A stretch of 64,000 bases of DNA from Bacteroidota bacterium (GTDB taxonomy: Bacteria > Bacteroidota > Bacteroidia > UBA4408), in contig CAUJCU010000023.1 of the NCBI GenBank assembly GCA_963169745.1, positions 1 through 64,000 on the forward strand, given 5' to 3'. The notes beneath the pieces are model-generated. The model made no database searches. It worked only from the letters and a program-made list of their open reading frames with translations, and was not told the DNA's origin. Below are positions 13,796-14,715 of this stretch, piece by piece (position 1 is the stretch's first letter; each line of letters begins with the position of its first letter). A program made the position numbers and the translations under genes.

Positions 13796-14100
13796 GTTTT
13801 TTACTATTAAAAGAATTAAAGAAAAGGGAGGGTAAAATACTTAACTATTTTAATTTATTGCACTAAACTTTCTGAAAAGTTAATCAAAATTAACTTTTTA
13901 CAGAAATTATTTTTTTGAATCTGCTTTTTGGGTGTTTATGCCGCATAGCCGTTTATTTATTAAATGAAACTCATGTTAAAATTAAATGTACTATTTATTC
14001 TTCTAATGTCTATTAAACCAGGTGTTTATTCTGTATATTCTATATTTATTTAAATGAGGATACAGTTATAAATAGCGTTGTATTTTTTTAGGAGCTAGTA
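13796..14100. other. Intergenic, no gene seen
   Basis: AT-rich sequence between the M1 peptidase start and the candidate RNA. I see stop codons in all frames and no Shine-Dalgarno-linked ORF. The only feature is the tail region of the candidate minus-strand RNA near 14100. Confidence 0.5.
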
Positions 14101-14291
14101 AATAAGAGTAAAGAACCCGGATGTAAGGGTAGGAAAACTCAAAACCTACCCTTAAACTATCCACCACAGAAACATCCGGGAATATTAATTTGTAAATTTT
14201 ACCGGCCTAAAATCCGGGACAAATAAAGCATTTAGATGCTTTACAGCACTTAGCAATTATGCCTAGTTTAAATTGTGCTGTTTATTTTATT
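14101..14291 (-). ncRNA. Candidate structured RNA (about 190 nt), unassigned
   Basis: Read on the minus strand, the two ends pair: AATAA..TAAA (14291-14281) with TTTA..TTATT (14112-14101). Inside lie a CAGCAC/GTGCTG helix (14280-14275 with 14249-14244), a 7-bp AAAGCAT/ATGCTTT hairpin (14242-14225), and a long arm made of 9 bp CCCGGATGT/ACATCCGGG (14180-14172 with 14124-14116) stacked on 9 bp AAGGGTAGG/CCTACCCTT (14153-14145 with 14133-14125), separated by an 18-nt bulge on one side. A perfect -7 box ends at 14297, which places the transcription start at the paired 5' end. The 3' side continues into a U-rich stretch (TTCTTTACTCTTATTT). No open frame fits. I could not match it to RNase P, tmRNA, SRP RNA or another RNA I know. 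Confidence 0.55.
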
Positions 14292-14296
14292 CAAAG

Positions 14297-14304
14297 CAAA
14301 GTTA
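14297..14304 (-). promoter_or_regulatory. -7 promoter box of the candidate RNA
   Basis: Reads TAACTTTG on the minus strand (perfect TAnnTTTG). A TTG lies 23 nt further upstream (14330-14328), slightly wider than usual for a -33 box. Confidence 0.5.
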
Positions 14305-14715
14305 AGCATAAAATACAGGATATAAAACAATATTGCCTTTTAATTGCCCTCAAAAAAGATAAATTTATCAACAAATATAAATTATACCCTATTAATCAAC
14401 CATATACATTATGTTAAAAAAGCACGAAATGCTTTACAATAGTTCATTTTCCTCCGATTTACACATGACGTATTTTGTTATATTGTGGTTTTTAAAGTGG
14501 TTGTTTAAGCTTTTAAGTTCTTGAGTAGCTTAGGTGTTCATGTATTAAAAGTTTATTCAATAATGTACTTTATTTAAAAATGGAGTGCTCTGCTTCTGAA
14601 AATAAAATAGCGTACGGCCATAATACACAATGAATCGTTAACAACATTTTGGGGAAGAAGTCAAGTTATTTTATTATATATTAAACTTTGTAAGAGTATT
14701 TAAACCTAATTAAAC
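14305..14715. other. Intergenic upstream of murA
   Basis: No gene seen. A small AAAGCA/TGCTTT hairpin lies near 14421-14435. Just before murA, TAAACTTTG (14683-14691) is close to the -7 consensus but has three instead of two spacer bases; it may be the murA promoter. Confidence 0.4.

Follow-up and report, generated by a model that had tools for sequence, protein, structure and literature searches.

A conserved 65-nt nested hairpin element between an M1-family peptidase gene and murA in one genus of Bacteroidota

The murA/M1 intergenic region

The window, that is, the whole analysed stretch of 64,000 nucleotides, contains a gap of 920 bp (13796-14715) between an M1-family peptidase gene and a divergent murA. 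No ORF lying wholly within it exceeds 52 aa, in agreement with the earlier note, in which the gap was called gene-free. The M1 peptidase of the window species is 61% identical to that of each of two relatives, G001 and G003. An AT-rich inverted repeat at 13867-13908, ACTTTCTGAAAAGTTAAT ... ATTAACTTTTTACAGAAATT, forms a long near-perfect hairpin about 75-115 bp before the start of the M1 peptidase gene.

In this gap, a structured RNA of about 190 nt had been proposed on the minus strand, with its own promoter and with its two ends paired. All the letters behind this proposal are present, namely the box TAACTTTG (14304-14297), two hairpins (ACAGCAC/GTGCTGT and AAAGCAT/ATGCTTT) and the two-stem arm, correctly described as two perfect 9-bp stems with an 18-nt bulge, which lies on one side. 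The features of the region are as follows.

13795, minus strand: start of the M1-family peptidase gene (Pfam PF01433)
14716, plus strand: start of the EPSP-synthase family gene (PF00275) referred to here as murA
14372-14379, minus strand: second TAnnTTTG box, TATATTTG, preceding the core
14297-14304, minus strand: TAACTTTG, possible -7 box, an exact TAnnTTTG of chance frequency, from which a minus-strand transcript could begin about 110 nt before the core
14186-14291, minus strand: 5' half of the proposed 190-nt RNA with two 7-bp hairpins, z = -2.2, not conserved, outside the core
14116-14180, minus strand: conserved core, a 65-nt nested hairpin element with syntenic homologues, sharp edges and a fold z of -4.1
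14173-14180, minus strand: outer stem, 5' strand, CCCGGATG, partner 14116-14123, with a compensatory C-G to U-A change in G001
14158-14172, minus strand: single-stranded 15-mer, TTTCTGTGGTGGATA, on the 5' side of the internal loop and unchanged (15/15) across the three species
14154-14157, minus strand: A/T-rich linker of variable length (by alignment, 4 nt in the window species, 5 in G003 and 1 in G001)
14145-14153, minus strand: inner stem, 5' strand, AAGGGTAGG, partner 14125-14133, with a compensatory pair that is U-A here and C-G in the relatives
14134-14144, minus strand: apical loop of 11 nt, TTTTGAGTTTT, 11/11 identical in three species
14125-14133, minus strand: inner stem, 3' strand, CCTACCCTT, pairing with 14145-14153
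14124, minus strand: single-base bulge between the stems, variable (A/T/G) among the species
14116-14123, minus strand: outer stem, 3' strand, CATCCGGG, pairing with 14173-14180

The predicted fold of the core comprises, in this order, an 8-bp stem, a one-sided internal loop of 16-20 nt, a 9-bp stem and the 11-nt apical loop; in the window genome only, the outer stem has a ninth pair (U-A). Compared with shuffled sequences, the two-stem arm has a z of -4.1 on the minus strand and -5.9 on the plus strand. Nowhere else in the 64-kb window are perfect stems of 8 bp or more nested within such a span, and this arrangement occurred in only 28 of 200 shuffled windows of the same length. Ordinary hairpins resembling the inner stem-loop were met in other Bacteroidia, AAAGGGTAGG-TTTGGGTTT-CCTACCCTTT (L076 1501-1537) and AAAGGCAGG...CCTGCCTTTTTTT (L132 near 1501), so the inner half of the core may have been derived from a common terminator-type hairpin.

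The outer part of the proposed RNA did not hold up. About 125 nt of it is not conserved, the conserved part being 62-66 nt long rather than about 190, and the 5' 106 nt has no match in the relatives. The supposed closure of the ends corresponds to an outer 25-nt duplex of -2.4 kcal/mol, which was equalled or surpassed in 87% of shuffles (p = 0.87) and at 210 of the 242 alternative positions tried in the gap. The promoter box, whose placement together with the end closure was regarded earlier as unlikely by chance, is of chance frequency: the window has 116 copies of TAnnTTTG versus 106 +/- 10 in shuffles, and one or two per 920 bp are expected. As to conservation of the stems in related genomes, the two-stem arm is kept in G001 and G003, while the 5' hairpins have no counterpart there. 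Thus, the idea of a structured RNA of no known class survives for the 65-nt core, which has no Rfam match, is conserved in the genus and contains two compensatory pairs, and not for the remainder.

Conservation and distribution of the 65-nt core

BLAST against 60 relatives matched the arm, and the arm alone, in two other species of the same little-studied genus of Bacteroidia, with E values of 7.7e-22 and 4.9e-18 for the two syntenic homologues.

C262:2585-2654: core homologue in G003, between the murA and M1 orthologues
C4:54584-54649: core homologue in G001, between the murA and M1 orthologues

Contigs JALRAS010000008.1 and CAMBZU010000004.1 are apparently the public copies of the G003/G001 pair. 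The record of CAMBZU010000004.1 is titled Chitinophaga pinensis; the species sits in the genus of the window genome, and the record name looks doubtful.

Using a covariance model (CM R1) built from the three core copies, exactly one copy was found per carrier genome in the three species, with scores of 94-100 bits, and no core was detected in the fourth member of the genus, G002, or in four other members of the family. The order containing this genus is represented by only 8 genomes in the sample. Over 395 genomes of the class and 396 of the phylum, in partly overlapping samples and under strict filters that could miss weak relatives, the model gave no convincing homologue; its matches there were weak (23-28 bits) and looked like coding sequences or ordinary short hairpins. 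A 21-base split pattern run over the GTDB contig collection returned the same two relatives and chance matches without stems, and no core was matched in the searched viral contigs, phages and plasmids. The best reading of these data is that the core is genus-restricted, with no convincing homologue outside the genus among the genomes searched.

At four-fold degenerate sites of murA, pairs of the three species agree at only 30-41% of positions and all three at 16%, which means that silent sites are saturated at this divergence. Of the 66 alignment columns of the core, 56 are identical across the three copies, and not one of the 26 unpaired bases in the 15-mer and apical loop differs. If each of these 26 positions agreed at the three-way rate of the silent sites, the chance of finding them all unchanged would be about 2e-21; the sites are treated as independent here, and the value serves for illustration only. 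Directly outside the stem edges, identity drops to 15-55% per 20-nt bin. Since the loops are letter-identical in three distant species while the surrounding DNA has drifted to randomness, the core is, as judged from this comparison, almost certainly functional. It is not coding, because the change in linker length (4/5/1 nt) shifts the frame and a stop appears in G003. The possibility of a decayed protein gene, raised together with the proposal, finds no footing either: the core frame is not kept, and a small ORF of the relatives, described below, is without a match in the window genome.

Pairing is preserved as well. All 17 base pairs are kept in the three species (0 broken of 51 pair cells), and in each of the two variable pairs (columns 5-66 and 36-54) both partners are exchanged, C-G in one species corresponding to U-A in another. 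When the partner strand was slid, 29-57% of positions were paired and no double-sided change was seen; the observed covariation, which comes from three sequences only, was matched in 52 of 500 shuffles. These compensatory changes are suggestive and count as evidence for a structure, not as proof of it.

Neither Rfam 15 at the gathering threshold nor a search at E up to 5 gave a credible family at the locus, which is consistent with the earlier statement that the RNA belongs to no known class. SRP and other Rfam families were considered and set aside, as none matches here and the SRP RNA gene was found elsewhere in all four genomes of the genus (G000-G003; L129 for the window genome). A 6S-type RNA is expected in Bacteroidota. 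The 6S (RF00013) and 6S-Flavo (RF01685) models matched neither the locus nor any other place in the four genomes. The 6S RNA of this genus is thus unrecognised or missing, and the models may fail on it; with SRP RNA found and 6S RNA nowhere in the four genomes, a miss at this locus would not by itself exclude a divergent 6S RNA.

Possible role of the core

A minus-strand transcript carrying the core close to its 3' end is weakly favoured by the sequence context, because TAnnTTTG boxes of the gap lie on the strand of the core in all three species and on the opposite strand in none (the gap of the window species has three boxes on the minus strand), and because the minus-strand 3' flanks are T-richer. 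This is clearest in G003 (CTTTTTGTTTG; CTTTTTG), the U-tracts being weak in the other two species. In G001 and G003, a small ORF of 113-114 aa lies about 80 nt upstream of the core.

L104:1501-1842 and L105:1501-1839: small ORFs in the two relatives

Their products are 39% identical to each other, fast-evolving, hydrophobic at the N-terminus and share the C-terminus GFYFSLIQPPD. Pfam gave no match for the G001 copy, and neither copy matched NCBIfam; the ORF is absent from the window species. Downstream of the core in G001 and G003, a TATCTTTG box about 25 nt before the M1 start codon is an apparent M1 promoter.

Partners of the core were sought by complementarity. The complement of the 15-mer segment (14 bases used), taken perfectly or with one mismatch, revealed no trans target shared between the species, and no pairing of the loops with the M1 or murA start regions exceeded chance in all three. 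By inspection, a loop-bulge pseudoknot could have only about 2 bp. The 15-mer region reads PDVSVVD, matching a stretch of a GAPDH gene in G046. An antisense relation to GAPDH was rejected: the genus's own GAPDH genes have no such stretch, and the resemblance is due to chance.

In our opinion, with a probability of about one half, the core is a small RNA peculiar to the genus, or one derived from a 3' end, that offers two single-stranded sites for recognition. The functional unit would be the 65-nt core and not the 190-nt object; it would probably form the 3' part of a short minus-strand transcript. This transcript would be the small-protein mRNA in the relatives and, in the window species, an ORF-less RNA starting at one of the two listed TAnnTTTG boxes. 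The two stacked stems would fix the relation of the single-stranded sites UUUCUGUGGUGGAUA and UUUUGAGUUUU, the loose A/U linker serving as a spacer. A conserved partner would most likely be bound at these sites, be it an RNA-binding protein or, through short pairing, an mRNA in trans. The core may thus act as a genus-specific sRNA, perhaps derived from a 3'-UTR, whose stable helix would also protect or form the 3' end. Against this reading stand the absence of the element from G002, a plus-strand fold that is, relative to shuffles, as stable or more so, a total of three sequences, the negative results of the target searches and of the terminator scan, and the weak U-tracts of two species. A related and rather unlikely variant is a new, compact, lineage-restricted ligand- or protein-binding RNA class, riboswitch-, ribozyme- or platform-like, in which the two invariant sites would form one recognition or active centre.

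The alternatives concern the same evidence. The core could be mainly a 3'-end element, an intrinsic terminator or a 3'-UTR stabilising hairpin of the upstream small transcript that insulates the M1 promoter. Its place in G001 and G003, past the small-ORF stop codon and ahead of the TATCTTTG box of M1, as well as the T-rich run that follows it in G003, fit such a role, which we regard as possible and yet unlikely. Terminators conserve pairing, not loop letters, whereas in the core 26 loop letters have stayed the same despite saturated divergence, and the element is unchanged in the window species despite the missing small ORF. A terminator scan also found no site at the core, although it allows loops of 3-8 nt only and so would miss it. 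Because the loop letters are constrained as well as the pairing, a role in which a protein or another RNA recognises the loops is favoured over that of a bare terminator. A cis-regulatory or riboswitch-like leader of the downstream M1 peptidase gene appears improbable. The core does lie upstream of this gene in all three species, G002 lacks the element and has its closest M1 homologue elsewhere (C25), and invariant loops are like those in ligand-binding RNAs; however, the M1 start codon lies at very different distances (about 42, 140 and 320 nt), the TATCTTTG box of G001 and G003 would leave the core outside the leader, and for neither loop did pairing with the M1 start region exceed chance in every one of the three species.

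A DNA-level element, either a protein-binding site or an extruded hairpin, would agree with the intergenic position between divergent genes, the similar distance to the murA start in three species (0.54-0.61 kb), the plus-strand z value and the lack of G-U pairs among the changes, which might have marked the strand. A 17-bp helix with a one-sided loop of 16-20 nt and compensatory changes would nevertheless be unusual for a double-stranded DNA site, and there is one copy per genome; we consider this explanation improbable. As for a chance hairpin or a decayed gene, the small number of genomes (three) and the AT-rich gap may speak for it, but we consider it extremely improbable and already refuted by the conservation data: the E values of the syntenic homologues stand against saturated neutral divergence, the small ORF of the relatives is unmatched in the window genome, and the G046 GAPDH match is not common to the genus's own genes.

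To our knowledge, few small RNAs of this phylum have known roles. Letter-perfect loops beside randomised silent sites make the core a strong and cheaply testable RNA candidate, and a vague 190-nt prediction has been narrowed to 65 nt with 26 bases to mutate. Genus-restricted RNAs with few sequenced carriers escape covariation surveys, and the core illustrates this.

Comparison with known systems

6S RNA is about 110-190 nt long and consists of a closing stem, a central bubble and a long terminal stem. The core resembles 6S and 6S-Flavo RNAs as a long imperfect hairpin with an internal loop, but is only 65 nt long, and the outer 190-nt architecture is not conserved here. An identity with 6S RNA was rejected on the grounds of this size and architecture, an outer pairing at the level of chance and the lack of a model match. 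With intrinsic terminators the core shares a GC-rich stem and a T-rich 3' flank on one strand, and differs from them in its nested stems and invariant loop letters, together with the negative terminator scan.

Like Bacteroidales-1, Bacteroides-1, Flavo-1 and other orphan motifs, it would be a structured RNA limited to a part of Bacteroidota (PMC2864571), although none of these families was matched by it in the Rfam search. In Bacteroides, which has no obvious Hfq or ProQ (PMC7366714), many sRNAs are lineage-restricted, and an RRM-1 protein, RbpB, binds single-stranded RNA regions (PMC7366714, PMC11697453). The conserved stretches of the core lie within a closed hairpin and not at a free 5' end as in the GibS/FopS type of these sRNAs, and no Rfam family matches it; with such intergenic or UTR-derived sRNAs it would have in common a short transcript and conserved single-stranded stretches combined with a 3' hairpin (PMC7366714, PMC11697453).
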